From a virus, in the IMG/VR virus record IMGVR_UViG_3300022833_000344, positions 1 through 23,536 of that record: a stretch of DNA of 23,536 nucleotides; one strand, given 5' to 3'. Below the pieces are notes generated by a model. It was not told the origin of the DNA and did not search any database. It saw only the letters and a program-made list of their open reading frames with translations. The translations under genes and the position numbers were made by a program. Below, piece after piece: positions 3,756 through 19,638 of the stretch; positions within the stretch are counted from its first letter, which is position 1; each line of letters opens with the position of its first letter.

Positions 3756-4644
3756 AATTTGTTTTTGTTAGAGGTATATCAGCAGCACATGTACAGGAGT
3801 TTCGAGTGCATACTACCTGCTCACAGGGAACAATAAAACTTCCATTGTATATGTTACCTAAACTACCACCTACTCTACAAGTAGCACGATGAACATCACC
3901 GTCCCAGTTAATCATTAAGCTCTCAAGACCAGCATTGCATGACCAGCCCTTAAAGTTGTTCTTATGCAATTTAATAACATCGTTTGCATGAATAACTTCG
4001 CCACCATCTATTCTACAGTTAGGTTTGGCAGTTGCGTCTTGTGCAATAATCCATTCTAAATCCTTGCCGGCGTAGCGCATATCGTCGAACACATTGTGAT
4101 CACCTTCGGTCCATCGTATTCTACGCACAGCAAACTTAATACCCTTCTCGCGGAACTGGTTAACTACCTTACGAACATCTTCCATATGTTCGTGGTGTGC
4201 CATTACATTGACAAAGAAATCTGTTTGAGTCTCATCATAAAACTGGTTAATTGTTCTAACTACACGTTGCCAATCATATTCGAAGTGTAAACTAAAAACT
4301 AAGTGATTAAAATACATTTCGTTATTTAAATACCAACGTGCTGGTCGTGTTCCGTTAGTTGTTAAGTTAACCCAGAAAATATTCTTACGTCTAAAGTAGT
4401 CAAGCAGGTCTTCTATGCCAGGGTGTACACACGGCTCACCGCCTGTTAAACTAATACGTAAGGGTTTACCTATTTCAGACAATTTGTCCACAGTTGCTTC
4501 TAATACCGTAATGTCAGTGTGTGGACTAAAGTTATCGTGTATACTGCTAGGGCAATATGTACAGTCGTAGTTACAACGTTTTCCTAGATTCCATTCAACC
4601 TTGAGTTGGTCTTGATGTGGCCAGCTGCTGGTTATTTTATACAT
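3745..4644 (-). CDS. Radical SAM protein with SPASM-like C-terminus
   Basis: A 299-residue radical SAM protein. CX3CX2C is C24, C28, C31 (context RCNYDCTYC) and TGGEP is at 67-71, with LTTNGT following. The C-terminal part carries seven more cysteines (C210, C236, C256, C274, C279, C284, C286) around a NWDGDVHRATC...GNIYNG pattern typical of SPASM auxiliary-cluster domains. I chose ATG 4644 over the upstream GTG at 4668: it gives an 8-base overlap with the preceding gene, the same spacing seen at many junctions here, and leaves the fold intact. It sits beside a QueC-like gene, but the SPASM extension and length argue against QueE. Substrate unknown. Confidence 0.87.
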   Translation of the reverse strand: MYKITSSWPHQDQLKVEWNLGKRCNYDCTYCPSSIHDNFSPHTDITVLEATVDKLSEIGKPLRISLTGGEPCVHPGIEDLLDYFRRKNIFWVNLTTNGTRPARWYLNNEMYFNHLVFSLHFEYDWQRVVRTINQFYDETQTDFFVNVMAHHEHMEDVRKVVNQFREKGIKFAVRRIRWTEGDHNVFDDMRYAGKDLEWIIAQDATAKPNCRIDGGEVIHANDVIKLHKNNFKGWSCNAGLESLMINWDGDVHRATCRVGGSLGNIYNGSFIVPCEQVVCTRNSCTCAADIPLTKTNYEN

Positions 4645-5905
4645 AATTTTTAAATTCCGGCACAACACTTAATAAATTTTGATTACGAGTAGAGTCTAAT
4701 GCAAAATTAAAATCTAAAAAGTCTCGCCACAAATTGTTCTGATCCTTTGATTGCAAGTAGTTAATATTGTCTTGTATTTGTTGATGAGTAACTTTAGCAA
4801 GTAATGAGTTATTCTTAATAGCTTCCCAAGTATCAACTTGTAACCTAACTGCTTCTAAACGTGCAATTGCTATATTTTTTAACTCTTGTGGTAGTACCTG
4901 TGCTGACAAACAGTTAGGATAGCTAACACGATGACTATAAAATACTATACCTAGTTTGTTGATAAAATAATCAATGCATTCGGCAGCTTGCAATATGTTG
5001 CCAGCTTGAGCAGTAAATGCACCTACTACGCGACTCACATTAGGAATTTTTTGTATTTCTCTAATGTTAGCTTCCACTTGACGGAAATCTCCGTTACCGC
5101 GAATGTAATCGTAAACATCATGGATGCCGTCAATGCTTACATTAACAGCAACGGATCTAAAATGCGGCCAATAGTTATGTATAGTTCTTCCTTTGCTTAT
5201 TCCCAGCGTGGTACCATTAGTGGCATATTTAATCTCAATGTTCTTACCGTAGGGCTTTAACATATCAAGTATTTTGTAATGTCCGGGATCCATTAATGGT
5301 TCACCGCCTGCAAATTCTACTCTTCGAAAATGAGGAAGTAATTTTTCAAAACTTTCCCACCACTTGGCAGTATCATCAAATGGTCCAATATATTGACCTG
5401 GCTTGTTAACTAATCTCTCAACTGTTGGAACAAGATAGTTATTTTCTTTTTTATAAAACGGTACAACTTTATCCCAGTCTTTCCAGTTTGTGCTATCCAA
5501 TGGATTGCACATACGACATTTTAAATTGCACAAGTTATTAAGTTTAATTTCCATTGTGGGAAATTCAAAGGGCATTGTGTAGTTGTCAGTTAAGGTGTCA
5601 AGAGCATTTGGATACAAATTAATCCGAGCTTCTGGAATAACGCCGTTGATATGCCGTTGTCGTAAACTTTCTACTCCTTGGTCTTCTAGATCAAAACAAG
5701 GTTTACAAACTGCTGGACGCTCGTTATTTAATACTTGCCTACGTACCTCGAGCATAGCATCACCATTCCAAACTTCTTCTAAACTTTCTTTCTGTATCCA
5801 CCCAACAGGTTGGCTGCGGCAGCATACTTTAATTGCACCGTCTTCTCTAGTAGCAAGCCCTGTAAAAGGGTGCATACAAAATGTACAACTATTTGTTTTG
5901 GTCAA
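4637..5905 (-). CDS. N-terminal twitch / radical SAM protein (TTG start)
   Basis: A 422-residue paralogue of the protein at 1488-2897. The N-terminal twitch cysteines are C7, C10, C28/C29 and C67-X2-C70; the radical SAM CX3CX2C is C126, C130, C133; an AGGEP motif follows in EFAGGEPLMDPGH. The only nearby ATG (5875) would remove the first cysteines, so a non-ATG start is needed. TTG at 5905 has AAAGAGAG just upstream and a 17-base overlap with the QueC-like gene. The other TTG, at 5956, would run 68 bases into that gene, through its zinc-ligand codons. Second gene of the minus-strand operon. Fold secure, function unknown. Confidence 0.87.
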   Translation of the reverse strand: MTKTNSCTFCMHPFTGLATREDGAIKVCCRSQPVGWIQKESLEEVWNGDAMLEVRRQVLNNERPAVCKPCFDLEDQGVESLRQRHINGVIPEARINLYPNALDTLTDNYTMPFEFPTMEIKLNNLCNLKCRMCNPLDSTNWKDWDKVVPFYKKENNYLVPTVERLVNKPGQYIGPFDDTAKWWESFEKLLPHFRRVEFAGGEPLMDPGHYKILDMLKPYGKNIEIKYATNGTTLGISKGRTIHNYWPHFRSVAVNVSIDGIHDVYDYIRGNGDFRQVEANIREIQKIPNVSRVVGAFTAQAGNILQAAECIDYFINKLGIVFYSHRVSYPNCLSAQVLPQELKNIAIARLEAVRLQVDTWEAIKNNSLLAKVTHQQIQDNINYLQSKDQNNLWRDFLDFNFALDSTRNQNLLSVVPEFKNYV

Positions 5906-6566
5906 TTGCCCACTCTCTTTCTTTGCACCAAAAACAATTTCTGCAGATGGGAACAAATTGTCCTGGAGTATATGTTGTATAATCTAATCCACTAACCTCG
6001 CCTTCGCAGCTACGAGTGATATTTAATAACTCTGTAATATTATTTTCATAATACTGTTTTATAATTTCATCTTTCATAGTGAGTACAAACGGGTGTAATA
6101 TATCAACTCCCATATGTACCATGTGTAACGGCAATACTCCGTTGTTGCGTTCGGCCAATGCACCTGGAATCGCAATGTTAGGATTTTTATTAACAGCAGC
6201 AAACCAAGCATCTAAATTATAGGTATGTGCAACCCATTCATTATGCGCTCTAAGTATAATTCTATTACCTGGTTTTGCTGCACCATATTCGTCGGTAATC
6301 AACGGACTTGTGGGCTCTTCTAATTCAGGAGGAATAAATCCTTCTATATGTTCTATACGATTATCAAATCTGTTACGGAACCATTCTACTACTCCTAGTG
6401 CAACGTAACGCTGCCAAGGACGAGTTTTCCACATTCTTATTTGTGTAGTAAAGTAGATATTAGCATCAGTTTCTTTTAAAATAAGATACGCCAGTAACGC
6501 ACTATCTGCGCCACCGCTCAGGCTAATACCAATACGTTTCCAATCAGGATTCAAGAACAGTTGCAT
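5889..6566 (-). CDS. QueC-like PP-loop ATPase
   Basis: A 225-residue protein of the adenine-nucleotide alpha hydrolase (PP-loop) superfamily. The PP-loop SGGADS is at 17-22. The C-terminus has C187 followed by C208-X2-C211-X2-C214, the same zinc-binding arrangement as QueC (7-cyano-7-deazaguanine synthase). QueC converts 7-carboxy-7-deazaguanine to preQ0, but no queD, queE or folE partner is visible, so it may use another substrate by the same adenylating chemistry. I start it at ATG 6566, not 6572: 6566 lies 5 bases after the GATAAGTA box, the spacing seen at the other divergent junctions, while 6572 lies inside the box. It leads the minus-strand operon. Confidence 0.72.
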   Translation of the reverse strand: MQLFLNPDWKRIGISLSGGADSALLAYLILKETDANIYFTTQIRMWKTRPWQRYVALGVVEWFRNRFDNRIEHIEGFIPPELEEPTSPLITDEYGAAKPGNRIILRAHNEWVAHTYNLDAWFAAVNKNPNIAIPGALAERNNGVLPLHMVHMGVDILHPFVLTMKDEIIKQYYENNITELLNITRSCEGEVSGLDYTTYTPGQFVPICRNCFWCKEREWAIDQNK

Positions 6567-6571
6567 ACTCA

Positions 6572-6588
6572 TACTTATCAGTTAAATA
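6572..6588. promoter_or_regulatory. Back-to-back late-promoter-like boxes, copy 1
   Basis: The 17-bp element TACTTATCAGTTAAATA lies between the QueC-like gene and the hydroxylase-like gene. Read on the minus strand it gives GATAAGTA (6579-6572), 5 bases from ATG 6566; on the plus strand GTTAAATA (6581-6588), 4 bases from ATG 6593. The boxes resemble the T4 late -10 sequence TATAAATA. It matches elements at 13264 and 16336. Promoter function is inferred from position, repetition and resemblance; an operator or translation element is possible. Confidence 0.65.
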
Positions 6589-6592
6589 GTGC

Positions 6593-7240
6593 ATGTTAGA
6601 AAGAACTGAATATAAAATAAAGATACCAAAAATTACTGACAATTTTAATAATATAAAAACGTCAATTAATCAAGCGACTGGTAATTTTTTTTATGATCCT
6701 TGGAAAATTAAACCTGAATATAAAGGAACAGTTTGGGAAGAACTACTCAATAGTTTACCAGAGCCCCATGGCGAAGCAAGAATTATCGCAATGCAGCCTG
6801 GAGCGACGTATATGTCACATGCAGACATTGACAATCGTTGGCATCTAAGTTTGCAAGGGGAGCAGAGTTATTTGATAGATTTAGAAAATTTAGACATGCA
6901 CTTATTAACTCAAGATGGACACTGGTATTATATGGACGCTGGAAGAATACATACTGCATCAAATTATGGCAGTATTCCTAGAATACAATTAGTAGTTAGA
7001 CAGTTATTAACAATAACTAAAGAACCTAAGTTAGTAACAGCGGTTATTGAACCTAGTGTGCCACAGCATGATTATAGATATAAATTTGATAATATTGTTA
7101 GTCCTTGGTTAAACTATGCAAATACAAATAACAAAATGAAAGATTTTCATTTTGAAAACAATATAGTTAAGTTCAAGATTGTATTAACTGAATTAGACTC
7201 GTTAAAACTAACAAATGATTTTAGGATTACCGTAGAATGA
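6593..7240 (+). CDS. Asp/Asn beta-hydroxylase-like 2OG-Fe(II) protein
   Basis: A 215-residue protein with the metal triad of double-stranded beta-helix hydroxylases: H76-A-D78, distal H120 in RIHTASN, and R130 ten residues later as the likely 2-oxoglutarate anchor. The context (MSHADIDNRWHLSL and DAGRIHTASNYG) resembles the aspartyl/asparaginyl beta-hydroxylase family, though the substrate could be a small molecule. The C-terminal 75 residues are not recognised. No Shine-Dalgarno site precedes the ATG, which is 4 bases from a promoter-like box, so a leaderless message is possible. It leads an eight-gene plus-strand operon and overlaps the epimerase gene by ATGA. Confidence 0.78.
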   Translation: MLERTEYKIKIPKITDNFNNIKTSINQATGNFFYDPWKIKPEYKGTVWEELLNSLPEPHGEARIIAMQPGATYMSHADIDNRWHLSLQGEQSYLIDLENLDMHLLTQDGHWYYMDAGRIHTASNYGSIPRIQLVVRQLLTITKEPKLVTAVIEPSVPQHDYRYKFDNIVSPWLNYANTNNKMKDFHFENNIVKFKIVLTELDSLKLTNDFRITVE

Positions 7241-8154
7241 AAATATTAATGACAGGAAGTTCTGGATTTATTGGATCGCATCTTTCAGAACGTCTATCAA
7301 ATCATACACTGCATCATTTGGTAAGTGACTTAAGAGATCACCTCAGTGTAACTAATGAAGTAATAGCTGCAAAACCAGATATAATTATTCACTTAGCAGC
7401 ACGTACCGAAGTAGAACAAAGTTTTTATGAACAGATTACATTTAGTGAAATTAACTATGTAGGTACAGTGAATTTAATTGAAGCTGCAAGTAAAGTTAAA
7501 AATTTAAAAAACTTTGTGTTTGCTAGCACTATGGAAGTTTATGGTTGGCAACCGATTTCAGATGAAATTGAAAAATTTGGAAAGCCTAGTGTACCTGTTG
7601 CATTTGATGAAAATACGCAACCTAATCCCAATGCACCATATGCAGTTGCAAAATATGGTTGCGAAAAATATTTAGAATACGCACATCGTTGTTTAGATTT
7701 GCCGTTTACTGCATTGCGACAAACTAATTGTTATGGCAGAAAAGATAACGAGTTTTTTGTTACAGAACAAATTATTAGTCAAATGTTAACTAATCCAGCA
7801 GAATGTAATTTAGGGTACGGCGATCCTTATCGCAATTTTATATTTGTAGATGACATGCTAGACGCTTGGCAAGCTGTAATTGAAAATCCTGATAAATGTA
7901 ATAATGGTAATATTTTTACTATTGGTCCCGATAATCCTATTAAGATTAAAGATTATGCACAAATGATTGCTAAGAAATTAAACTGGCACGGTAAAATTAA
8001 TTGGGACACTAAACTCCATCGCGCAGGGGAAATTTACTGGTTAAATTCTAATAACAATTTAATTAAAGAAAAATTAGGTTGGGAGCCTAAAGTAAGTTTG
8101 GATGAGGGCTTGGACAGAACTATTGAAATTTGGAAGAACAGATATGGTCAATAA
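7237..8154 (+). CDS. NAD-dependent epimerase/dehydratase (extended SDR)
   Basis: A 305-residue extended short-chain dehydrogenase, usual length for nucleotide-sugar epimerases and dehydratases. The NAD-binding TGSSGFIG is at 6-13, HLAA at 52-55, the serine/threonine of FASTMEVYG at 97-98, and the catalytic YxxxK is Y135-A-V-A-K139. The C-terminus ends in the LGWEPKVSLDEGL pattern typical of sugar-nucleotide members. It probably acts on a nucleotide sugar, giving the operon a carbohydrate link. The start overlaps the hydroxylase gene by ATGA. Which sugar cannot be told. Confidence 0.88.
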   Translation: MKILMTGSSGFIGSHLSERLSNHTLHHLVSDLRDHLSVTNEVIAAKPDIIIHLAARTEVEQSFYEQITFSEINYVGTVNLIEAASKVKNLKNFVFASTMEVYGWQPISDEIEKFGKPSVPVAFDENTQPNPNAPYAVAKYGCEKYLEYAHRCLDLPFTALRQTNCYGRKDNEFFVTEQIISQMLTNPAECNLGYGDPYRNFIFVDDMLDAWQAVIENPDKCNNGNIFTIGPDNPIKIKDYAQMIAKKLNWHGKINWDTKLHRAGEIYWLNSNNNLIKEKLGWEPKVSLDEGLDRTIEIWKNRYGQ

Positions 8155-8842
8155 CAAATGGGAACCGTATCTTAAATTAGACACTAATGGGCTACCTTGC
8201 ATGGCACAGCAAACCTATGAGCCATTAGTAAGTAGTGACGGGAAGACGTTTTGTAAAAATTATAGTTTTCCAAATGAATATCAATACATGAATAGTGCAG
8301 ATCGACCTTTGTATACTACAGAAGTTGTTAATTGGTTTTGGTCTAACGAGCTAATGTGGATCGAACATTTTAAAGATAAGCCCTATGCTCCTGAAATATT
8401 AGATATAGATTTAATCAACAAACGAATATACATCAAGTGGTACACAGAAAGTTGTAACCAGATAATTTATAGCGGTAAGGATTGGCCTCAACAACACTGG
8501 CGTAAACAGATTAGAGATATCATTGTGGATCAGTATAATGAAGGGGTATATAAGTTAACTATGTATCCTCATTGTCATTATATCAGCGACGATGGAAATA
8601 TGCGAGCTATCGATTGGTACGGATGTGTGCCGGTTAACGATCCGTATATAGAAGAAAAATATATGCAAGGTATTATTCACGAAACAGCACAGTTTAGATT
8701 AGACGAAACTGGCAAACCTCTAGACGGAAAATTAAATTTAGAAATGATGTTTGAACGCAGTTTATCAACGCACGTGATGTGGGGCAATCATAACATGAAT
8801 TACATTTATGATGAGATATTTACACGGGTTACAAATGCCTAA
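8144..8842 (+). CDS. Kinase-fold protein, probable pseudokinase (copy 1)
   Basis: A 232-residue protein that reads like a small aminoglycoside-phosphotransferase/protein-kinase fold: a Lys-containing KTFCKNY strand, a helix with Glu (E69 in WSNELMWIEHF), PEILDIDLINKRIYIKW like the strand before the hinge, and a catalytic-loop region at 138-158. Aligned with the usual D-L-H-P-G-N loop, Asp becomes T139 and Asn becomes C144, while the later metal Asp (ID157W) is kept, so phosphotransfer is doubtful. ATG 8144 is chosen over 8102: GGAAG precedes it and the overlap with the epimerase falls to 11 bases. Paralogue at 12563-13258. Fold is inferred from pattern only. Confidence 0.55.
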   Translation: MVNNKWEPYLKLDTNGLPCMAQQTYEPLVSSDGKTFCKNYSFPNEYQYMNSADRPLYTTEVVNWFWSNELMWIEHFKDKPYAPEILDIDLINKRIYIKWYTESCNQIIYSGKDWPQQHWRKQIRDIIVDQYNEGVYKLTMYPHCHYISDDGNMRAIDWYGCVPVNDPYIEEKYMQGIIHETAQFRLDETGKPLDGKLNLEMMFERSLSTHVMWGNHNMNYIYDEIFTRVTNA

Positions 8843-9398
8843 GCACATTGGAAAAACTGCAGGAATAGATTGGAATGCTATTATTGACCTCTGTAAAAAT
8901 AGCAACGGAGATCATAACACGGTAACTAGTGTGGTTGACCGTAGCGAGGCCGAAGCAGATGGTCCGTTGCTAAAATCATATCGAGAAATTATTTCTACAT
9001 GGCAAAAAGCAAAATACGATTTAAATCTGATTGAATGGTGGGATTATTATCCTGGAGAACATTTTGATATAAGCGTACAAGACAGATTTGCAGAAATTGT
9101 AAATGCTGATCCTCTGCGTGTATTTGTGTCTGAAGTAATGCCCGGACACAGTGTCCCGTATCATTGGGATGTTGAAGATAAAGAAGAGGAGTGGCTAGCA
9201 CAAGGCAAACTTGTTCGATATGTTTGTTTTATGGATAAACCTAAATTTGCACAGGTTCTTATACTACAAGACCACTGCTTCTATAATATAGATCAAGGCG
9301 AAATATATCAGTGGGATGATTATAGAAATTTCCATGCAGGAACTAATGCTGGAGAAGGCCCATATTATCTTTTTCATTTTTTAGGAAGACCGCGATGA
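8835..9398 (+). CDS. Hydroxylase-like DSBH protein, tandem copy A
   Basis: A 187-residue protein with H110-W-D112 and distal H167 (NFHAGTN), the metal triad of 2OG-Fe(II) beta-hydroxylase-like proteins. The position ten residues after the distal His, normally Arg or Lys for binding 2-oxoglutarate, is Y177. It is a clear tandem paralogue of the next gene: both share WD-X3-PG-X-H-[FY]-D-X-SVQD and the PGH...HWDV block. ATG 8835 overlaps the kinase-fold gene by 8 bases and is preferred over 8808. The missing anchor suggests changed co-substrate use or loss of activity. The family is fairly certain, the activity not. Confidence 0.72.
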   Translation: MPKHIGKTAGIDWNAIIDLCKNSNGDHNTVTSVVDRSEAEADGPLLKSYREIISTWQKAKYDLNLIEWWDYYPGEHFDISVQDRFAEIVNADPLRVFVSEVMPGHSVPYHWDVEDKEEEWLAQGKLVRYVCFMDKPKFAQVLILQDHCFYNIDQGEIYQWDDYRNFHAGTNAGEGPYYLFHFLGRPR

Positions 9399-9967
9399 TT
9401 AAATTTTTAGGAAATACAAGTTTGCTAATAAACTGGGACGATGTCATTGCCGATCTAGAGAGATGCGATTATGGAAGTCATCCAGGAAATGAGCCTATTT
9501 CAGACACGGGCCCTACACACAAAACAGGTGATCCTATTCCGTTGTTAACTCAAGTTACAGATATCTGGAACAAAGAAGGATATAAAACTGTTGAGACAGG
9601 CGGTACAGTACGATGGGATATGTTTTTTCCCGGAAAGCATTACGACCAAAGTGTTCAAGATAAATTTTGCGAAATGTTTGAACTTACACCTAACTCAACT
9701 TCTTGGATTAGTAGAATATGGCCAGGGCACCAAGCACCGATACATTGGGATGTACACGACGAAGAAGAAGAATTATTAAAAAAACCCGACGCTCTACGCT
9801 GGCACTGTCATATTGGTAAACCAGCATTTGGACATGTATTTGTATGCGAGAATGAAATATTCTATAATAGGCAACAGGGAGACGCATTCCAGTGGGATTC
9901 CCGTCGCTACTGGCATGCAGGATCTAATTGTGGATTAGTTCCTAAATATTTGTTCAATCTTTGGTAA
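9395..9967 (+). CDS. Hydroxylase-like DSBH protein, tandem copy B
   Basis: A 190-residue 2OG-Fe(II) hydroxylase-like protein with H117-W-D119, distal H174 (YWHAGSN) and K184 ten residues later, so the complete triad plus a likely 2-oxoglutarate anchor is present, unlike its tandem neighbour. The two overlap by ATGA and share blocks over most of their length, indicating duplication followed by divergence. The first 60 residues differ most and may set substrate choice. The stop and the next start are interlocked as TAATG, implying translational coupling. Substrate unknown. Confidence 0.76.
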   Translation: MIKFLGNTSLLINWDDVIADLERCDYGSHPGNEPISDTGPTHKTGDPIPLLTQVTDIWNKEGYKTVETGGTVRWDMFFPGKHYDQSVQDKFCEMFELTPNSTSWISRIWPGHQAPIHWDVHDEEEELLKKPDALRWHCHIGKPAFGHVFVCENEIFYNRQQGDAFQWDSRRYWHAGSNCGLVPKYLFNLW

Positions 9968-11004
9968 TGAGTATGGAAACAGGAATAGTACAATGGTACA
10001 ATGATGCCAAAGGATTCGGATTTGTAAAAACAGATGTTGGCGATCAAATTATTTGTGAAAAATGGCATCTTACACACGAACCTAAAACTCTAAAGGAAAG
10101 ACAACGTATTAGCTTTAGAAGAGACCAATGGCAAGGTAGAGATGTTGCAAGAGAAATAACAGTATTAGAAAATGATGCTATCACTGCTCCTCTTCTTAAT
10201 ATGAATCAAGGTAAAGTTTATAGTAAATTTCCTTTAATTATTGTATTTGAAAATGCAGTTTCAGAAGAAATATGCGATGAGATAATGGCAAAGCATCTTG
10301 CCGACGGAATGAACTTTGACGCAGGAAAGCAGTCACGTCGAGAAAGTTATACGCAGGTAACAGAAGATGTGGAACAACGCGGTATTAGTTTGGGAATGGA
10401 TCCACATCACTACAACATTATTGCAAATAGCATCGTGGACAACTGTGGGTTTCCTCATTCATTTATTGAAGCAATTGATATTTACAATTACGATACTGGA
10501 AGATATTTAGACTTGCATCACGATTATCCTTATTTTCCAGACAAGATTAACTATTACTCACACGGTAATAATGATAGAGTTGGTACTAGTATTTTATATC
10601 TAAATGATGATTACAAAGGCGGCACTACATATTTTCCTAAATTAGGTGTAGATATAAAACCTAAAAAAGGAAGTATGCTGTATTTTAAACAGTGCTATGA
10701 TGAACCTACAAATTGGAGTACTATACACGAGAGTACAAAAATTATCGAAGGAACTAAGTGGATTGCTAGTTGTTTCTTTAGTGAAAGAGAGCGAGTAGGA
10801 TACACGAATAGAGAGGACTTTATGCTAGAAGAAAATCCAACATTTACAGAACTGTTTTATGTTAAGAAGTTTATGGAGATACAGAGAGGCAATGTACAGC
10901 TATATCGCAAACTTAAAAATTTAGAAGAAAGTGACTTGCGAACAGTAATTGAAAGTAAATTGGGTGTAGACTTCTTTAATAACCTAGACGACTTAATAAA
11001 GTGA
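9967..11004 (+). CDS. Cold-shock domain fused to prolyl-4-hydroxylase-like oxygenase
   Basis: A 345-residue two-domain protein. Residues 1-70 match a cold-shock domain: ETGIVQWYNDAKGFGFVKTD contains the RNP1 motif KGFGFV, and a later LKERQRISF strand and DVAREITVL end the barrel; the RNP2 position (usually VFVH) is replaced by IICEKWHL. Residues 90-275 match prolyl-4-hydroxylase: H184-H-D186, distal H254 and K264 ten residues later, with GGTTYFP and KKGSMLYF strands. Cold-shock domains bind single-stranded nucleic acid, so RNA-guided or ribosome-associated hydroxylation is possible. ATG 9967 (TAATG overlap) is preferred to TTG 9961. Both domains are recognised confidently; the combined role is unknown. 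Confidence 0.85.
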   Translation: MSMETGIVQWYNDAKGFGFVKTDVGDQIICEKWHLTHEPKTLKERQRISFRRDQWQGRDVAREITVLENDAITAPLLNMNQGKVYSKFPLIIVFENAVSEEICDEIMAKHLADGMNFDAGKQSRRESYTQVTEDVEQRGISLGMDPHHYNIIANSIVDNCGFPHSFIEAIDIYNYDTGRYLDLHHDYPYFPDKINYYSHGNNDRVGTSILYLNDDYKGGTTYFPKLGVDIKPKKGSMLYFKQCYDEPTNWSTIHESTKIIEGTKWIASCFFSERERVGYTNREDFMLEENPTFTELFYVKKFMEIQRGNVQLYRKLKNLEESDLRTVIESKLGVDFFNNLDDLIK

Positions 11005-11444
11005 AATTTTATATAACTGGTAGTACACGGGGACTAGGAAAATATCTAGCAGAACACTTTAATTGCGAGTGCTTAGATCGACCAATTGATTTGAATATGG
11101 ATATAAACTCAGTTGCCGACAGTATAGAAGAAGGCAGTACTGTAATATTAAACGCTCATGCTTCACAGCTAGAATATGTGCATAAGTTAAAAGACAAGTG
11201 TAAATTAGTTATTTGCGGAAGTGTTGCCGCAGTAAATACTGATCCTACTATGACGGAATATAGCGAACAAAAGTATAATTTAGAAAAAACAGTAACTAAA
11301 CTAGCATTAGAAAGTAAGTATCCGATATTGTATTTGAGGTTAACTAGCAGCAGTTATAGGAACGAGCACCTAATTGCTAAAAGCATACAATTTTGGATAG
11401 ATACTCCAGACGTTACATTTATAGGATATAATATTAATGAGTGA
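11001..11444 (+). CDS. Minimal SDR-like protein (GTG start)
   Basis: A 147-residue short-chain dehydrogenase-like protein, well below the usual 230-260 residues. It keeps TGSTRGLGK near the N-terminus (dinucleotide-binding), a serine in VICGSVAA and the YxxxK pair in EYSEQKYNL, then stops soon after, so the C-terminal substrate-binding region is missing. GTG at 11001 is read as the start because GTGA overlaps the previous stop; no ATG is available upstream. It is followed by a second SDR overlapping by 8 bases; the two may form a heterodimer. Reductase or dehydrogenase activity is plausible but the truncation leaves doubt. Confidence 0.72.
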   Translation: MKFYITGSTRGLGKYLAEHFNCECLDRPIDLNMDINSVADSIEEGSTVILNAHASQLEYVHKLKDKCKLVICGSVAAVNTDPTMTEYSEQKYNLEKTVTKLALESKYPILYLRLTSSSYRNEHLIAKSIQFWIDTPDVTFIGYNINE

Positions 11445-12039
11445 AAAGAAAATTATAATCACTGGTCACACTAGTGGAATTGGTAAAGCAATTTACGACA
11501 AGTTTAAAGAGATAAGTTGTAGAGAAATTGTAGGTATGAGCCGTAGCAACGGGTATGACATTGAAAAAGACTTTGATAAAATTGTAGAAGAGGCAACTGG
11601 CGCAGAAATCTTTATCAATAATGCATATCGTGATAGCCAACAACTTAAACTAGTTGACGCACTAAAAGACAAAGTTGACATGATGGTGGTTATGGGCAGT
11701 GTTAGCCGATTCTATCCAGAACTTATTCCCACTAACTATGTACACGACAAACAAGCTCTAGCAGAAGCATGTAGACTTATTAGTTTGAATCCGACCGGTA
11801 TTCCTCTATTACACTTAGATTTGGGATTCATTGAGGGAACGGAACTTAATAGCAATGATCCAACAGCCTTTACTAGTGACTACACTACCACTAAAGAAGA
11901 TATAGTTGATACAATTATATTTTGGGCAGGTAAACCGTCAATTAGACAAGTTGAGTTTAGATGGAAATTAACATCTCATGTTAAGTCAGAATTAGAGCGT
12001 ATCAATCCTAACTTAGATCCATCGAGGATACAGATTTAA
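11437..12039 (+). CDS. SDR-family oxidoreductase
   Basis: A 200-residue short-chain dehydrogenase. It has TGHTSGIGK for dinucleotide binding near the N-terminus, an INNAY strand (the NNA motif), serine in VMGSVSR and the catalytic pair YVHDK. It is shorter than typical SDRs but longer than its upstream neighbour, whose order of motifs it shares. NAD(P)-dependent reduction or oxidation of an alcohol or carbonyl is expected, substrate unknown. It closes the plus-strand operon, and its last 27 coding bases overlap those of the convergent gene. Confidence 0.82.
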   Translation: MSEKKIIITGHTSGIGKAIYDKFKEISCREIVGMSRSNGYDIEKDFDKIVEEATGAEIFINNAYRDSQQLKLVDALKDKVDMMVVMGSVSRFYPELIPTNYVHDKQALAEACRLISLNPTGIPLLHLDLGFIEGTELNSNDPTAFTSDYTTTKEDIVDTIIFWAGKPSIRQVEFRWKLTSHVKSELERINPNLDPSRIQI

Positions 12040-12570
12040 GTTTTCTAAAAACTTATCAGGATGTATTTGCCACACGGTTTGATCTGTGTTTCGATAATGT
12101 GCTTCTTTAATTTTTGTAACAATACCTAGTTTTTCTAATGTAGGAAAATAGTAACTATGGACTAGGCGTTGACTAGCTTCTTTTGAAGTATTGCTAGTTG
12201 CATACATGTTGCCATGCCCTGCCCATTTAATGCATTGCGGAAGTAAAAATTGATCTGTTAGATTTTGATGTTCCGCAATTAACCGTTTGGGAGTAATTAA
12301 TCCTTTACTGGGTCTTGATTCGGCAAATGTACAGACTCTTGTAAGTATCCTATAACTGTTAGGGCCCATTACGCCGTCAAAACTGTGTGCAGCAACACTG
12401 CCTATTGCTCGATCATTATCATATAATATCCAAGCAGACCATTCTTTCTCGTTCCGAAAGCAGTCTATCATCGCCTTCTGACTTGAATTATTTACAAATC
12501 CTCTACGAGCAGCTTCTGAATAAAATTCAGTTAAGTCTAAACTCGGAGTCCACTCTATTACCTTATGCAT
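12013..12570 (-). CDS. GNAT-like protein (putative acetyltransferase)
   Basis: A 185-residue protein resembling GNAT acetyltransferases: an N-terminal helix pair, then SAWILYDNDRAIGSVAAHSF, like the usual strand-turn-strand with the V/I-G motif. I cannot see a clear acetyl-CoA Q/RxxGxG/A loop, so the assignment is tentative. ATG 12570 gives an 8-base overlap with the upstream kinase-fold gene and is preferred over 12627. The partnership with the kinase-fold gene in a two-gene divergent operon is the main clue to its role. It could be a hypothetical of another fold. Confidence 0.5.
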   Translation of the reverse strand: MHKVIEWTPSLDLTEFYSEAARRGFVNNSSQKAMIDCFRNEKEWSAWILYDNDRAIGSVAAHSFDGVMGPNSYRILTRVCTFAESRPSKGLITPKRLIAEHQNLTDQFLLPQCIKWAGHGNMYATSNTSKEASQRLVHSYYFPTLEKLGIVTKIKEAHYRNTDQTVWQIHPDKFLENLNLYPRWI

Positions 12571-13258
12571 AGATTGCTTTTGCTTCTTCCATAACATCAT
12601 CCGGAAAGTTAGTTTTAAAACTTTCAAATGCCAGCATTTGTATTTGCTTATGCGGAGTTGGCATATCTACATCTAGTCCCATAGCAGACATTTTAGGAAA
12701 CAAGTCTGCTTGTCTATCTTCACTGATATGACTCATTACACTACGCAAACTAATCATGGGATCGATATCTCTATAGCAGAAAAAATAATTAATACTTTTA
12801 AGTTTTCCATCTACAACAAAGTAACTACTAGGATGCAAGCTGTACTTGTAAATGCCTAAAGACTTGTGAGCTCGAAAAATGTCTAACATTTGTTCGCGCC
12901 AATTAGGAAGTATATTATCGTATGTACAGTTATTGTCCAATGTTTGTTGCCAAAAATCTACACCTTGTACTTCCATGTAGAGCTTTTTAGAATACATATC
13001 TACCTGTGTAATGTTTGGAATCATATCTGGGAACTTGTTCCGCATCTGTGTAATGTGATTTACTTCTCGCATCCACTTTTCTTCCATCAGTGACGGATTG
13101 ACTACTTGGTTCTGACCTTTATGATACTCAGTGTCATTAACATAGTGTTGACAGAATAAAGTTTTAGACTTATTAATCAAACTAGTGTAAATTAGATTGT
13201 TACGGCAAAGGCCCTTGTCTGGCACGTTATTGTAGTAGTAATCAAACTCGGTGTTCAT
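12563..13258 (-). CDS. Kinase-fold protein, probable pseudokinase (copy 2)
   Basis: A 231-residue paralogue of the protein at 8144-8842. The catalytic-loop region YSLHPSSYFVVDGKLKSINY (139-158) lines up well with the APH/kinase pattern D-L-H-P-G-N-I-L-V-D...I-D-F, but the catalytic Asp is S140, the metal Asn is S145 and the second metal Asp is N157. Loss of all three strongly suggests a pseudokinase that binds rather than phosphorylates. A helix with EEKWMREVNHI precedes PNITQVDMYSKKLYMEV, like the hinge strand. Start 13258 is chosen because it sits 5 bases after the GATAAGTA box, while 13264 lies inside it. The fold is inferred by pattern. Confidence 0.55.
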   Translation of the reverse strand: MNTEFDYYYNNVPDKGLCRNNLIYTSLINKSKTLFCQHYVNDTEYHKGQNQVVNPSLMEEKWMREVNHITQMRNKFPDMIPNITQVDMYSKKLYMEVQGVDFWQQTLDNNCTYDNILPNWREQMLDIFRAHKSLGIYKYSLHPSSYFVVDGKLKSINYFFCYRDIDPMISLRSVMSHISEDRQADLFPKMSAMGLDVDMPTPHKQIQMLAFESFKTNFPDDVMEEAKAIYA

Positions 13259-13263
13259 GCACA

Positions 13264-13280
13264 TACTTATCAGCTAAGTA
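13264..13280. promoter_or_regulatory. Back-to-back late-promoter-like boxes, copy 2
   Basis: TACTTATCAGCTAAGTA, with perfect 6-bp inverted arms (TACTTA/TAAGTA). The minus strand reads GATAAGTA (13271-13264), 5 bases from ATG 13258; the plus strand reads GCTAAGTA (13273-13280), 5 bases from ATG 13286. It is the second of three such divergent junctions and the most symmetrical. Promoter role inferred. Confidence 0.65.
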
Positions 13281-13285
13281 GTTAC

Positions 13286-14101
13286 ATGATACGAGGTATT
13301 GGCGGAACGCCTTATATAAATTTAGATCCTTACTTAGATATAGAAGGATTTAAAAACTTACATCCAGAAATATGTAAGGGCTTTGCTTTGGCAAGAGAGT
13401 ACGCCAAAGAAGGCACTTGGATGACTCCTGGGTTTGATTGGAAAGACTCTAGTTACACTCTGAATTGGAAACCTATTTACAAGGCATGGCAAGAATATCA
13501 AGACTTGCCGATTGACCATCCTATTAAACTAGAAGGCAATACCATATTGCCAACTAACTTCGGTGATTACAAGCAGAGAAATATTTTTACTCGTTATCTT
13601 AAAGCTACATTAGGTGCAAACGATCCTTACATTTATTACTTTTTATGGAATGAAGGCGATTGGAACGAAAGAAATGCACAACGACAAAAAACTGAAGAGT
13701 CGGTATATTTTCCAGGCATTGTTAACTGGGTAGAAAAATTGCAGACAGATGGCATAATTGATCGTATTGGTCGCGTTATATTCTTTCACTGCGATCACAA
13801 TGGCAGAGCGTTTGAACATAGAGACCTAGATGCAAACAACGGCGTACATGATGATAAGCAGTACAGTCCGCACAACGATGAATTCATACATATACGTTAT
13901 CGTACAAAGAGGGGATTTTACATTTGGGATCCCGAGAGCGAGAATAAACATTACCTAAACTGTAATGCAGCATTTTGGAATGACCAAGATTGGCATGGCG
14001 GCGAAGAATCCAAAGAAGTTGAGTACGGTCTGCGTATTGATTGTAAATTTACAGATTACTTTAGAAAAAAGATTGGTATAGGACACTTGGACCACTATTG
14101 A
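13286..14101 (+). CDS. 2OG-Fe(II) hydroxylase-like protein
   Basis: A 271-residue protein with the metal-binding pattern H178-R-D180 (FEHRDLDANN) and distal H237 (DWHGGEES); Arg250 lies 13 residues later rather than the usual 10, and Tyr occupies the +10 position. The IHIRYRTKRGFYIWD segment between them fits the central strands of the barrel. The N-terminal 150 residues are unrecognised. No clear ribosome binding site precedes the ATG, which lies 5 bases after the divergent box. It interlocks with the next gene as TGATG. Membership in the beta-hydroxylase group is moderately supported. Confidence 0.65.
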   Translation: MIRGIGGTPYINLDPYLDIEGFKNLHPEICKGFALAREYAKEGTWMTPGFDWKDSSYTLNWKPIYKAWQEYQDLPIDHPIKLEGNTILPTNFGDYKQRNIFTRYLKATLGANDPYIYYFLWNEGDWNERNAQRQKTEESVYFPGIVNWVEKLQTDGIIDRIGRVIFFHCDHNGRAFEHRDLDANNGVHDDKQYSPHNDEFIHIRYRTKRGFYIWDPESENKHYLNCNAAFWNDQDWHGGEESKEVEYGLRIDCKFTDYFRKKIGIGHLDHY

Positions 14102-14592
14102 TGGAATACGTTGGCAACTTTAATTTTATGCAGGATGAATGGCTAGAAGAAATACTGTCAACTGAAGGACAAGCTCGTCCTAGAGATTGGCCTCCTTCTA
14201 ATGCCGTGGAAAGTGCAGAATATGCACATTACAAAAATGCCGGATATAGCTTAGAAGCAGTTAATTGGTGGGTATATGAAAAACAAGATGTAAGTTTTGA
14301 CATTGTGCCACCTTGGACTACCAATAACTATCATTGGTGGATAACAAAATTGTACCCTGGACAATACATGCCAATGCATACCGATCCGCATACACACGAC
14401 AGTCCGTGTAAACGATATTGGATGCCGCTACAAGATTATCAACCTGGACATATCTTTATATACGAGAACAATCTAGTAAAAGATTACAAAGCAGGTGATG
14501 TGTACTCTTATATTAAATCACAGGATATGCACGGAGCTGCTAACATAGGGCATACTCCGAGGGTAGTATTACAAGTTACTGAATTTATTTAA
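14101..14592 (+). CDS. Small 2OG-Fe(II) hydroxylase-like protein
   Basis: A 163-residue protein that is almost only the barrel: H93-T-D95 (MPMHTDPHTH), distal H144 (DMHGAANIG) and R154 ten residues later, the complete set for iron and 2-oxoglutarate. It closely resembles the protein at 21822-22325 in size and motif style (KLYPGQYMPMHTD against KMLPGMILPYHTD). ATG 14101 is chosen over the in-frame TTG at 14098 because of the TGATG interlock. Its last 24 bases overlap the convergent gene. Substrate unknown; the compact form suggests a small-molecule or exposed-residue target. Confidence 0.78.
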   Translation: MEYVGNFNFMQDEWLEEILSTEGQARPRDWPPSNAVESAEYAHYKNAGYSLEAVNWWVYEKQDVSFDIVPPWTTNNYHWWITKLYPGQYMPMHTDPHTHDSPCKRYWMPLQDYQPGHIFIYENNLVKDYKAGDVYSYIKSQDMHGAANIGHTPRVVLQVTEFI

Positions 14593-15675
14593 ATGCCCAG
14601 CATCTGCTTCCAACGAAAAATTTATAGTTATATTATTAAATTTATTTAATTTATTAACTAGATTATTTTGTGCAGTTAACCGATGCTCTAAAGAATAAAA
14701 AGCAGCAGTTCCTTCATAACAAAATATATTTGATAAATTAACTAAGGTTTTTAGATTAGGATCTATATAATTAACTAACTCTGTACTATTAAGTAAATCG
14801 GTGTTGATAAACTTATAAGTATTACTTTCTTTTCTAGGACAATGTTCTTGCCAGTAGTCTAATGCTTTTTGATTATAATCATAAAACATAACTGTGCCGT
14901 GTTCGACTAAATCTAGATATAGTGTGCCACTTGCCGGTAACACTAGTTGCTCGTACCGTTCAGTTATTCCGGATGAGTGTTCTGTATTTGCAGTGTGAAC
15001 AAACTCTTCTTTACAATACTCGACCTTATAACCAATGTATATTGCTTCCTTATAATAATCCTGTTCACTTTCTGGATAGTAATGCTTCTTATTATACCTA
15101 ATGCTTTCATTAAACACCAGCACTGGCAAATTGTTTTCAAATGCTATTCTTAGCAAGTTCCAACCGTGACATCGATTAGCATATCTATGTTCTTGTGTGC
15201 CGCTGTTTACAAACTTAGGAGTGTAGTCATCATGCCAGTTCTCTGCACTGCGTCTAGGTTCTGTCTGAGTATGTGGCATGCACTTTTCTAATACGCCTAC
15301 TGTAGGGTGTTGTAGTGCGTTGTAATGCGCCATGTTAACTACGTAGCACTGATGATGTAGTTCGTAGTAAGCATCGTACATTGTTCTGTCTAGTACGTGT
15401 CCTGCAACAAAGAACTCTTTATTCACTAGTTCCTCGAGAGCTTCAAAAAACGCAGAACCATTGATATATTCTGTGCCCGGACTCATCACTACTGCATAGT
15501 TGTAATCTTTTACATATTGTAAAAGTTTATCTTCGTCTTGATCCAGAAATACATCATATCCTTTAGCATATAAGTTTGAAATTGTAAAGTCACAAATATT
15601 TCTAATGGTAGTTTGTATTTCGCTAGTAGCGTATGTGCTAATATCGTCCACGATACAAAACGCTATTTTAGACAT
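14569..15675 (-). CDS. Two-domain protein with methyltransferase-like C-terminus
   Basis: A 368-residue protein of uncertain function. The N-terminal half looks like an alpha/beta nucleotide-binding fold (MSKIAFCIVDD, then YAVVMSPGTEYINGSAF and FFVAGHVLDR), possibly glycosyltransferase-like. The second half contains LVLPASGTLYLDLVEHG followed by VMFYDYNQKALDYW, which fits a class I methyltransferase glycine loop and the acidic end of strand 2. Neither active site is fully diagnostic. ATG 15675 overlaps the upstream hydroxylase gene by 8 bases and is preferred over 15699. It is the second gene of a two-gene minus-strand operon. Confidence 0.5.
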   Translation of the reverse strand: MSKIAFCIVDDISTYATSEIQTTIRNICDFTISNLYAKGYDVFLDQDEDKLLQYVKDYNYAVVMSPGTEYINGSAFFEALEELVNKEFFVAGHVLDRTMYDAYYELHHQCYVVNMAHYNALQHPTVGVLEKCMPHTQTEPRRSAENWHDDYTPKFVNSGTQEHRYANRCHGWNLLRIAFENNLPVLVFNESIRYNKKHYYPESEQDYYKEAIYIGYKVEYCKEEFVHTANTEHSSGITERYEQLVLPASGTLYLDLVEHGTVMFYDYNQKALDYWQEHCPRKESNTYKFINTDLLNSTELVNYIDPNLKTLVNLSNIFCYEGTAAFYSLEHRLTAQNNLVNKLNKFNNITINFSLEADAGHLNKFSNL

Positions 15676-16330
15676 GGCTCTTTCTGTAACTTCTAGCAAT
15701 TAGTTCCACAAATTCATCTTTGTGTTTACCGGGCCTACCGTGTGCTATTAGATGTATTCTACGTTGATTAGAGTTATTAAACACACTATGGACATTGCGT
15801 ATGTTTATAATGAATGCTTTACCTTCTGAAAACGGAACGGTGCCATGCCCTTCTAAATGCATATTGCAATCATCTGGATGAATAATTGCAATATTGATTG
15901 GAACTCCAAAGTCTAACATATCTAATCCTTGCTCTCCCGGTAAGCGTCCAGGAGCGTCACTGTGTGGATTAATTTTTCCACCAGGTTCTAGTTCCATAAA
16001 CCGTATACGCCTGTAACTTTCATAAGGAAACGCTTGCCAAAACTTTTTTATACTAGGAGTGTGGTCGCTTATACTTGTCCACTTATAAGGAACATCTTCT
16101 TCTTTGGTCCAATCTCCATAGTGTGTCCATGCTCCGGTTTTCTCTACGTCAATACCGTGTATGCAACTACTGTTCCATCCTGGATGATCGTCTCCTCGAT
16201 GATTAACAAATTGCGCAGCAACAGTTTCCTGCTTCCAAGCGTCTAAATCAAACTCGATATCTAGTGCTAACCAGCCAAAATTGCTTTTGTTTAGTAACCA
16301 ATCTGCTATTTTATAATCTGCATTGTCCAT
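15668..16330 (-). CDS. Asp/Asn beta-hydroxylase-like protein
   Basis: A 220-residue protein with the best aspartyl/asparaginyl beta-hydroxylase signature in the window: H123-S-D125 in a KINPHSDAPGR context, VPINIAIIHP, a GTVPFSEGKAFIIN strand, distal H181 (RNVHSVFNNS) and R191 ten residues later. Family members hydroxylate Asp/Asn or small substrates using 2-oxoglutarate. The ATG is 5 bases after the minus-strand GATAAGTA box, with no Shine-Dalgarno site. It pairs with the two-domain protein downstream. The family is likely; the target is unknown. Confidence 0.82.
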   Translation of the reverse strand: MDNADYKIADWLLNKSNFGWLALDIEFDLDAWKQETVAAQFVNHRGDDHPGWNSSCIHGIDVEKTGAWTHYGDWTKEEDVPYKWTSISDHTPSIKKFWQAFPYESYRRIRFMELEPGGKINPHSDAPGRLPGEQGLDMLDFGVPINIAIIHPDDCNMHLEGHGTVPFSEGKAFIINIRNVHSVFNNSNQRRIHLIAHGRPGKHKDEFVELIARSYRKSHV

Positions 16331-16335
16331 ATACG

Positions 16336-16352
16336 TACTTATCTGTTAAGTG
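16336..16352. promoter_or_regulatory. Back-to-back late-promoter-like boxes, copy 3
   Basis: TACTTATCTGTTAAGTG. The minus-strand box GATAAGTA (16343-16336) lies 5 bases from ATG 16330, exactly as in copies 1 and 2. The plus-strand arm ends in G instead of A (GTTAAGTG) and is 17 bases from the next start; a separate TATAAATA further on holds the usual position. Function inferred from the repeated layout. Confidence 0.6.
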
Positions 16353-16356
16353 CGCA

Positions 16357-16364
16357 TATAAATA
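16357..16364 (+). promoter_or_regulatory. Exact T4-type late promoter box TATAAATA
   Basis: TATAAATA is identical to the T4 late -10 consensus and lies 5 bases before ATG 16370, the same spacing as the other divergent boxes. In T4, transcription begins about 6 bases after this box, so the message would start at about the initiation codon and be leaderless. AT-richness makes chance matches possible, but the position argues for use. Confidence 0.6.
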
Positions 16365-16369
16365 ATTAT

Positions 16370-17296
16370 ATGAAAAAATGTGCCGCTTTTTGGAATCATA
16401 CAAATTTACGTAGTGAGAACAGGATTTATCCTTGTTGTAGATTTAAGGAACCTGTGCAATCGTTTAATGGTGATGTAGGAAGTATATTACACAGTGATCA
16501 GTATGAAATTTTAAGAAATACAGATGTTACTACGCTGTCGTCTTGTGCAAAGTGCATGTATGAAGAAGACAATGGCAAGGAAAGTTTGCGCCAGCAATTT
16601 AATAAACAATATAATATCGACAAAGTGGAATTACAATACTTTGAAGTAGGGTTTGATAACATATGCGATTTAGCATGTGACGGATGTTGGGGAGAATGGA
16701 GCCATACTTGGGCATTAAAAAACAATCCGACTGCAACACTTAAACAAGTAATTGTAAGCACTGATGAGTTGTTTAATATACCTAGCAGTGTTAATAAAGT
16801 ATTATTTTTAGGAGGCGAGCCATTAATGACAAATCGTCATAGACGCTTTTTAAAAAATCTCAAAAATTTAGAAAATTTAGAAGTAATTTACAATACTAAC
16901 GGTATGCACAAGTTGCAACAAGAAGATTTCGATATATTAACTAAATGTAAATCTGTTAAATTCATTGTTAGTGTTGATGGTTACAATACACTAAACGAAA
17001 CGGTAAGATCTAATAGCATTTGGAGCATAGTTGTAAAAACAATAGAACAGATTTCGGATAAATTTGATATGACTATACATACTACTATACATAAAAACAA
17101 TTGGCACGGAATTGCAGATATGCACGCATGGGTATCTAAAAATAATTATGCATGGACTACTAATATTTTAACTTATCCACTACGCCTAGATATTGTTAAT
17201 TTGACTAGTTTAGAAAAAGAGTCGTTTGCAAATATGCTCGGAGAATACAATATACCTAATTCGAAATATATAAAGGAGCACCTCAATGGTAGTTAA
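16370..17296 (+). CDS. N-terminal twitch / radical SAM protein
   Basis: A 308-residue, shortened member of the N-twitch radical SAM group. The twitch cysteines are C4, C22/C23 and C59-X2-C62; the radical SAM CX3CX2C is C99, C103, C106 (ICDLACDGC); LGGEP is at 147-151. It is about 115-160 residues shorter than the relatives at 1488 and 4637, mainly after the core, so the barrel may be trimmed. It leads a four-gene plus-strand operon from the TATAAATA box and overlaps the next gene by 11 bases. Fold secure, substrate unknown. Confidence 0.86.
   Translation: MKKCAAFWNHTNLRSENRIYPCCRFKEPVQSFNGDVGSILHSDQYEILRNTDVTTLSSCAKCMYEEDNGKESLRQQFNKQYNIDKVELQYFEVGFDNICDLACDGCWGEWSHTWALKNNPTATLKQVIVSTDELFNIPSSVNKVLFLGGEPLMTNRHRRFLKNLKNLENLEVIYNTNGMHKLQQEDFDILTKCKSVKFIVSVDGYNTLNETVRSNSIWSIVVKTIEQISDKFDMTIHTTIHKNNWHGIADMHAWVSKNNYAWTTNILTYPLRLDIVNLTSLEKESFANMLGEYNIPNSKYIKEHLNGS
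17273..17278 (+). promoter_or_regulatory. Strong ribosome binding site AAGGAG
   Basis: AAGGAG lies 7 bases before ATG 17286, inside the end of the upstream radical SAM gene. It is the clearest Shine-Dalgarno match in the window apart from 19627 and fixes the start of the hydroxylase-like gene. Confidence 0.75.
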
Positions 17297-17831
17297 AGGT
17301 AATATACCTATAACATGGGACACCGAATGGCAAGCATTTGAATGGAATGAAACTCTAATGACAAATGAGATACCTAAGGATGATATTTGGAATACTTCTG
17401 CAACTCGTAAAAAATTAGAACTCGAAAAACTGTATGCAGAATTAAAAATTCCTGCAGAGTGTACTAAACATTATATGAGTATTCGTCCTCCTCTTACTCC
17501 TGGTCTACATGCCGTACTAGACCAATACAATACAGTAGACCACAACTATAATTTTTTAAAACTTACAGCAGGACACAATGTTATTAAGCATTATGACAGT
17601 TATGCTACATTTATTAAGTTTAACAACATCTTAGAAGATAACCATAACTTAATTAAACGCACTATCGTTATGATGACAGATTGGAGTTTTGGTCAAGTAC
17701 TTCAAGTCGAAGATCGAATCGAAACTCATTGGAAAGTCGGAGATACTTATACATGGCAAGGAGATTCTTGGCACGGGTTGGGTAATTTTGGATTTGATGA
17801 TTGCGTTGTAATGCAGGTAACATGGTTATGA
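17286..17831 (+). CDS. Hydroxylase-like DSBH protein lacking the 2OG anchor
   Basis: A 181-residue protein with H102-Y-D104 and distal H163 in a SWHGLGNFG context, aligned with the other small hydroxylase-like proteins here (for example MHGAANIG in 14101-14592). The residue ten after the distal His is Cys173, not Arg or Lys, so 2-oxoglutarate binding may be altered. RTIVMMTDWSFGQVLQV and WKVGDTYTWQGD give the barrel strands. The start is fixed by AAGGAG, and the ATG overlaps the radical SAM gene by 11 bases. Hydroxylase fold is likely; catalysis is uncertain. Confidence 0.7.
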   Translation: MVVKGNIPITWDTEWQAFEWNETLMTNEIPKDDIWNTSATRKKLELEKLYAELKIPAECTKHYMSIRPPLTPGLHAVLDQYNTVDHNYNFLKLTAGHNVIKHYDSYATFIKFNNILEDNHNLIKRTIVMMTDWSFGQVLQVEDRIETHWKVGDTYTWQGDSWHGLGNFGFDDCVVMQVTWL

Positions 17832-18733
17832 GCAAATACGAATACGATAAGAGAGCATTAAGATTTGGCCATTCAACTGCAATTGATGATGCAGATGTAA
17901 TTGATCACATTAAAAATTTTAAAATTGATATGCATACTGTTTTATCTACTGACAGTTCAGCATATATTGAAACATTTTTAAATTGGATTAATAGTTCTAA
18001 AAATAATTCATTAAAAGGATTAGACGAGTTTAAACATGCTGTCTACTCTAATGGTACAACAGAAGGCTTTGAAAAATTTTATTGGCAGAATCAAACTCGA
18101 CGATTTCGTTGTTTTAAAGGCGAATACTTATACCATAAATTGGCCTGGAGAAATCGTGATTGGAAATTCTTAGAAGATGACGAATTAACGTATAATGATG
18201 CAGTTATTATAAGTCTACCATTTGCCGATACAGGATGTAAGCATGAACAGATGGACTTAGTTCTCAAACGATGTGAACTATTAGGTATACCGGTCCTGCT
18301 TGATGCATGTTATTTTGGTATAAGCAACGGTATGGAGTATAATTTTAATTATAAATGTATTACTGATATAACTTTTAGTTTGAGTAAAGTATTTCCAGTG
18401 GCTCATGCTAGGATAGGTCTTCGACTAACTAGAGAAGATACTGACGATATGTTACTTGTCTATCACAAAAACTCATACAATAATAGACTAGGTGCAGAGT
18501 TAGGTGTACATCTAATGAATGAATTCGGCGCAGATTACATATATAACAAATATAGATATAAACAAGAAGAGTTTTGTAAGATTCTAGAGGTATCCCCAAG
18601 TGATACTGTCATATTTGGTGTAGGTGATAGTAAATGGTCTGAGTATAATAGAGGAACTAATACAAATAGATTAGGTTTTCAAAAGTATTTGCACTTACCA
18701 GTAGACAGTTTTAAGCATAATAATGAAACATAA
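17828..18733 (+). CDS. PLP aminotransferase-like protein (fold type I)
   Basis: A 301-residue protein with the marks of class I/II aminotransferases in reduced form: SNGTTEGF (phosphate-cup region) at 74-81, D159-A-C-Y162 (pyridine-N Asp and Tyr), and TFSLSKVFP with K187 as the likely Schiff-base lysine, followed by ARIGLRL. It is roughly 80-100 residues shorter than typical enzymes, with the C-terminal domain cut back, so activity is uncertain. Transamination or a related PLP reaction on a keto-sugar or amino acid is the natural guess. ATG 17828 (ATGA overlap) is preferred; 17801 and 17822 are in-frame alternatives. Confidence 0.7.
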   Translation: MSKYEYDKRALRFGHSTAIDDADVIDHIKNFKIDMHTVLSTDSSAYIETFLNWINSSKNNSLKGLDEFKHAVYSNGTTEGFEKFYWQNQTRRFRCFKGEYLYHKLAWRNRDWKFLEDDELTYNDAVIISLPFADTGCKHEQMDLVLKRCELLGIPVLLDACYFGISNGMEYNFNYKCITDITFSLSKVFPVAHARIGLRLTREDTDDMLLVYHKNSYNNRLGAELGVHLMNEFGADYIYNKYRYKQEEFCKILEVSPSDTVIFGVGDSKWSEYNRGTNTNRLGFQKYLHLPVDSFKHNNET

Positions 18734-19553: not shown

Positions 19554-19601
19554 TTTGGATTAAACTTTAATTCAGTCTTGTAATTAATATTATCACAACT
19601 T

Positions 19602-19609
19602 GTTAAATA
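19602..19609 (+). promoter_or_regulatory. Late-promoter-like box GTTAAATA
   Basis: GTTAAATA lies 29 bases before ATG 19639, in the longest non-coding gap of the window (85 bases). It is the same sequence as the plus-strand box of the first divergent element. Unlike those, it leaves room for a leader with a Shine-Dalgarno site. Confidence 0.6.
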
Positions 19610-19626
19610 CTCCTATATACCTATAC

Positions 19627-19632
19627 GGAGAG
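19627..19632 (+). promoter_or_regulatory. Ribosome binding site GGAGAG
   Basis: GGAGAG lies 6 bases before ATG 19639 and decides the start of the amidinotransferase. An in-frame TTG at 19600 overlaps the promoter-like box and adds residues unlike the family N-terminus. Confidence 0.8.
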
Positions 19633-19638
19633 AGTTTA

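Follow-up and report, generated by a model that had tools for sequence, protein, structure and literature searches.

Opposed T4-type late boxes placed five bases from start codons: candidate leaderless promoters at the divergent operon junctions of a virus fragment

How are two opposed operons switched on when almost no DNA lies between their first codons? The question is raised by a fragment of a T4-like aquatic phage that makes up a whole IMG/VR record (23,536 bases; the entire stretch is analysed here and referred to as the window). The fragment is without core genes, and its 29 called genes are arranged in alternating operons. Its divergent junctions number three only, and all of them carry a 17-bp near-palindrome, from which an earlier note had concluded that one palindromic element drives each pair of operons, possibly as leaderless messages. 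The three copies are present as it had written them: TACTTATCAGTTAAATA at 6572-6588, TACTTATCAGCTAAGTA at 13264-13280 and TACTTATCTGTTAAGTG at 16336-16352, with near-palindromic symmetry seen in copies 1 and 2. The distances claimed for them are also borne out (Table 1), as all three minus sides read GATAAGTA-N5-ATG and the TAARTA boxes of the plus sides lie 4, 5 and 5 bases from the ATG. The palindrome's right half (TTAAGTG) does not serve as the rightward promoter in copy 3; the candidate box on that side is TATAAATA, located 13 bp past the leftward box. The convergent junctions are likewise three (2892-2897, 12013-12039 and 14569-14592), and the 3' ends overlap at every one of them, leaving no room for intergenic terminators between operons.

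Table 1. Promoter boxes, lead genes and associated elements of the window
Feature	Position	Strand	Remarks
Box GATAAGTA, copy 1 leftward	6572..6579	-	5 bases from ATG 6566
Box GTTAAATA, copy 1 rightward	6581..6588	+	4 bases from ATG 6593; 1 bp from leftward box
Lead gene, leftward operon 1	5889..6566	-	Distant QueC-like; start = second ATG
Lead gene, rightward operon 1	6593..7240	+	Asp/Asn beta-hydroxylase-like
Box GATAAGTA, copy 2 leftward	13264..13271	-	5 bases from ATG 13258
Box GCTAAGTA, copy 2 rightward	13273..13280	+	5 bases from ATG 13286; junction kept in most orthologous loci
Lead gene, leftward operon 2	12563..13258	-	No Pfam or PHROG match
Lead gene, rightward operon 2	13286..14101	+	No family match; 227 IMG/VR relatives
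Box GATAAGTA, copy 3 leftward	16336..16343	-	5 bases from ATG 16330
Element TTAAGTGCGCATAT, between and running into copy-3 boxes	16346..16359	.	Also in the wide-spacing junction of L312
Box TATAAATA, copy 3 rightward	16357..16364	+	5 bases from ATG 16370
Lead gene, leftward operon 3	15668..16330	-	Asp/Asn beta-hydroxylase-like
Lead gene, rightward operon 3	16370..17296	+	Radical SAM
Contrast box GTTAAATA, leadered	19602..19609	+	29 bases before ATG 19639; Shine-Dalgarno (SD) GGAG 19627-19630

At copies 1 and 2 the longest minus-side reading frame begins at an ATG that overlaps the last A of the box (6572 and 13264). The start at copy 1 was taken as 6566 because tblastn matches to relatives begin at that methionine, and the start at copy 2 as 13258 because the CAT-N5 spacing is kept in orthologous junctions. 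Eight TAARTA-N4/5-ATG sites occur in the window; six are the divergent starts and the remaining two are intragenic, both with an A preceding the ATG. The chance of all six starts carrying a box, estimated from box frequency, is about 3e-15, an approximate figure that assumes two ATG candidates per start. By itself the 8-mer TACTTATC is no rarity (3 copies in the window versus 1.4 expected), and its signal is placement, not mere occurrence. Over full records, ATAAATA-N5-ATG was counted 47 times, compared with 4 for reversed-pattern controls. The placement of boxes near starts is no chance effect.

The same arrangement is found in relatives. From the relatives of gene 13286-14101, 80 loci were fetched, and in most of them the gene is divergent and its junction has the form CAT-N5-(box)(box)-N5-ATG, the letters varying and the spacing staying constant between orthologous junctions. 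In a few loci the orthologue comes after a co-directional gene and has either no box or a TAAATA box further off with AGGAG. A table of motif-to-ATG distances, proposed in the earlier note as a check, was compiled over relatives and peaks at exactly 5 in both sets used. For 53 dereplicated loci, in which each TAAGTA or TAAATA was measured against the in-frame ATG that follows it, the peak comprises 80 and 78 cases, respectively. The main set, eight T4-superfamily genomes or fragments with the window included, has 76 genes at a box-to-start distance (d) of 5, 23 at 4, 7 at 6, 17 at 7-14 and 192 at 15-40. A scan of IMG/VR for exact 17-mers gave an ATG at 4-5 on both sides in 7 of 70 cases, a count diluted by chance hits, and the commonest ATG distance was still 5. 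The consensus of the boxes is RATAARTA, mostly GATAARTA; their first two positions favour R.

The genes at d = 5 differ from the others in their start context as well. All 76 have a pyrimidine before the ATG, as do 12 of the 23 at d = 4, compared with a background of 643 among 1421 ATG starts (45%), and SD-like sequence accompanies only 4 of the 76 versus 124 of the 192 at d = 15-40. At the leadered late boxes a pyrimidine at box+5 is not general (Y 0.48), so the -1 pyrimidine would be a trait of the putative leaderless class and not of the promoter. Together with those of HTVC008M, the d = 5 genes amount to 87 in 50 families, 49 of them pyrimidine-only, and the class is therefore not made up of copies of one family. 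The window contains a leadered box of its own before gene 19639, which follows its clearest co-directional gap (Table 1).

In relatives, the genes headed by exact-5 boxes include those for terminase, portal, tail tube, baseplate wedge and head-tail adaptor. The cultured Pelagibacter phage HTVC008M has 11 exact-5 genes; in the annotation of its stretch 5500-20500 the depositors' start codons are the exact-5 ATGs, and a back-to-back pair leaves 26 bp between the ATGs of its DNA end protector and head completion genes. In HTVC008M 6280-19456 (L380), the genes preceded by exact-5 boxes include structural, curli (CsgF) and cyclase genes. The pattern is absent from T4, Syn9 and the part of GAP32 that was searched (1, 0 and 0 exact-5 genes, respectively).

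Of 30 records, 7 encode the T4 Gp23 capsid protein, among them all six longer than 150 kb, and the capsid protein of one relative shows 70-78% identity to its closest counterparts, those of jumbo T4-superfamily phages. A gp55-like sigma (phrog_234) is encoded by 9 of 11 large relatives in open frames of ~270-300 aa, and the window's own phage presumably has gp55 too. The T4 system also has gp33 and gp45; neither family was detected in the 11 large relatives, the gp45 search being one without a positive control, and gp33 was found in HTVC008M. The T4 clamp mechanism is therefore not assumed here, and activation may differ. Neither the window nor gene 13286-14101 had a near DNA match or a protein match in 50,697 phage records.

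Judged from these sequence features, it is probable that the boxes are T4-type late promoters giving leaderless messages. Each box would be read by the host RNA polymerase carrying the phage gp55-like sigma. In the T4 register, where the 8-bp box begins at -13, initiation would fall on the sixth base after the box; here this base is the A of the ATG, and the pyrimidine before it would provide a Y-A initiator step. The message would begin with 5'-AUG and its translation would be leaderless, without SD. At divergent operon heads two boxes would act back to back, with a gap of 1 bp in copies 1 and 2 and of 13 bp in copy 3, so that a stretch of 26-39 bp would start both operons in the late phase, and opposed polymerase orientations would have to exclude each other at any moment; the bidirectional geometry of these predicted promoter pairs fits overlapping polymerase sites. 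A start on the A, translation without a leader, expression in the late phase and mutual exclusion are what we infer from the arrangement, and the exact-5 class would most likely be late because the same boxes precede virion genes in relatives. Both suggestions made earlier on this point appear well supported: that of T4-type late promoters by the TAARTA core at a predicted -11 to -6, the gp55 homologues and the virion genes behind the boxes, and that of leaderless or nearly leaderless messages, indirectly, by the exact 5-bp spacing, the invariant pyrimidine, the lack of SD and the existence of a separate leadered class.

Start-site choice is often imprecise, and the promoters could be late ones at which initiation is scattered or displaced by a few bases, yielding very short leaders and no true 5'-AUG. 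The 23 genes at d = 4, where the ATG misses the T4 start register by one base, as it does rightward of copy 1, would agree with this, but the sharp peak at 5 and the absolute -1 pyrimidine do not, nor does the division from leadered boxes, which lie 15-40 bases off, mostly with SD, and leave few cases between. Short leaders of this kind thus seem unlikely. A dimeric regulator could instead use the 17-bp near-palindrome as an operator for both operons, with transcription starting elsewhere, as the symmetry of copies 1 and 2 and the retention of the near-palindrome at divergent junctions might suggest. However, a lone half-site occurs at the same 5-bp distance before co-directional portal and terminase genes, the separation of half-sites varies (0, 1, 13-15 or 28 bp) while the ATG distance does not, and 26-27 bp between ATGs offer little room for a separate promoter; matches resembling sigma-70 promoters were no commoner than in shuffles. 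We consider an operator very improbable. The sigma-70 scan itself (58 hits versus 66 in shuffles) was discarded as promoter evidence. That TAARTA, adjoining start codons as it does, is a translation signal or an A/T-rich start context in longer mRNAs and no promoter at all is scarcely credible, given that the same motif lies 15-40 bases upstream together with SD, as in T4, and is missing from most intra-operon genes.

If the boxes are late promoters, as we prefer to read them, their opposed pairs still have a geometry that calls for explanation. Among 143 divergent junctions in the 53 loci, boxes at a distance of 4 or 5 face both operons in 76 and one of the two in 32, proportions that do not represent a genome-wide rate, as the loci were picked through two window genes; whole or near-whole relatives have 1-3 both-sided junctions among 4-22, and several divergent junctions of these genomes have no box on one or both sides. 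ATG-to-ATG spacing in the both-sided junctions is 26-27 in 36, 38-40 in 26, 53-54 in 11 and other in 3, and the discreteness of spacing between opposed candidate leaderless genes is evident at divergent junctions in L004-L089 and L297-L376. The spacing of 39 is shared by nine different gene-family pairs (families joined by BLAST). For the QueC-like pair, 40 of 42 distinct both-sided cases belong to the three spacing classes, which are scattered over the QueC-like protein tree, with at least 9, 9 and 4 changes for the 39, 54 and 27 classes, counting those forced by well-supported branches; gene exchange between phages could be another source of this scatter. Helical phasing does not fit the spacing classes, box centres being 8-9, 21-22 or 36 bp apart.

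Of the single bidirectional element proposed earlier, the conserved geometry stands, but the element consists of two abutted boxes with a varying gap and not of one fixed palindrome, the rightward box of copy 3 is separate, and boxes also occur singly at co-directional genes. The suggestion that the boxes spread with divergent cassettes finds only partial support: partners change around the boxes, but intra-operon genes mostly lack one, which indicates that the box tracks operon-head position.

The wide-spacing class has a conserved middle, TTAANTGCGNA, in place of which copy 3 of the window has TTAAGTGCGCATAT. A TTAANTGCGYA-like central element (TTAANTGCG) lies between the boxes at window 16346-16359 and in L312, L306, L300 and other wide junctions. 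It is tempting to speculate that the fixed geometries, arrived at more than once within a single gene pair, together with the central element often present in wide forms, make up a modular switch between the two directions, the choice of the operon to be fired resting with a third site or with the direction of replication-coupled activation, though we hold this to be rather doubtful. Upstream of the QueC-like gene in L347 and L356, the opposed gene seems to show ATA behind its box where the leaderless ATG would be expected; the start may have moved, or AUA may itself serve as the start codon. Copy 3 might have arisen from an older start whose ATG became ATA, and an in-frame ATA 12 bases upstream fits this idea, but it is unsupported by relatives, in which the orthologue mostly has no preceding box.

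The window has five or six genes of the radical SAM type, SPASM being present in some of them, at 416-5956 and 16370-19553; accompanied by oxygenase-like genes, a QueC-like gene and an epimerase, they form a dense modification island with one common promoter type. At 9967-11004 a cold-shock domain and a 2OG-Fe(II) oxygenase domain are fused in a single protein. The boxes suggest a temporal class for the radical-SAM and oxygenase genes of the island, whose promoter type is common with virion genes. In a survey of pelagimyophages, attempts to predict middle and late promoters are reported to have failed (PMC7029224); the exact-5 class, which HTVC008M displays, supplies a sequence rule for finding late promoters where such prediction failed, and this rule also fixes start codons. 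These phages may in addition offer a natural system for asking if late infection favours leaderless translation.

The closest known counterpart is the T4 late promoter (gp55/gp33/gp45; TATAAATA), an 8-bp TATA box that begins at -13, roughly a helical turn ahead of the start, and is not accompanied by a -35 element (PMC2988020). The boxes described here resemble it in length, register, lack of a -35, association with virion genes and gp55 homologues in relatives, but prefer G at -13, allow A or G at -8 and would place the start codon on the start site, whereas in T4 itself a single gene lies at d = 5 and most are leadered and carry an SD. The cyanophage late motif NATAAATA (PMC2984593) is similarly a T4-type late box in marine phages, although cyanophage Syn9 has zero genes at 4-6 bases. 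Bidirectional bacterial promoters, described by Warman, Grainger and colleagues, usually place their opposed starts at a distance of 18, 10 or 23 bp and are subject to mutual exclusion (PMC12825309); short pseudo-symmetric sequence, opposed transcripts and exclusive polymerase orientations, the last two predicted in our case, are features in common, but those promoters use a common sigma-70 -10 element, whereas here two separate boxes abut and the ATGs lie 26-27, 38-40 or 53-54 bp apart. In Deinococcus-Thermus, a -10 box adjoining the ORF leads to leaderless expression (PMC12340547), which parallels the promoter box next to the ORF and the leaderless mRNA predicted here; these are, however, the bacterium's own promoters, with no phage late sigma, and abutted divergent pairs are not reported in the part of that account consulted. 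No paper on leaderless T4-type late promoters was found in a search that was thin on subscription journals, which makes this weak evidence of absence. T4-type late boxes, bacterial bidirectional promoters and leaderless bacterial messages from a -10 box beside the ORF are each already known separately; that search gave no account of their meeting in pairs such as those proposed here for the window and many relatives, candidate late promoters between opposed genes from which transcription is predicted to start on the start codon itself, with no need of a leader or SD.
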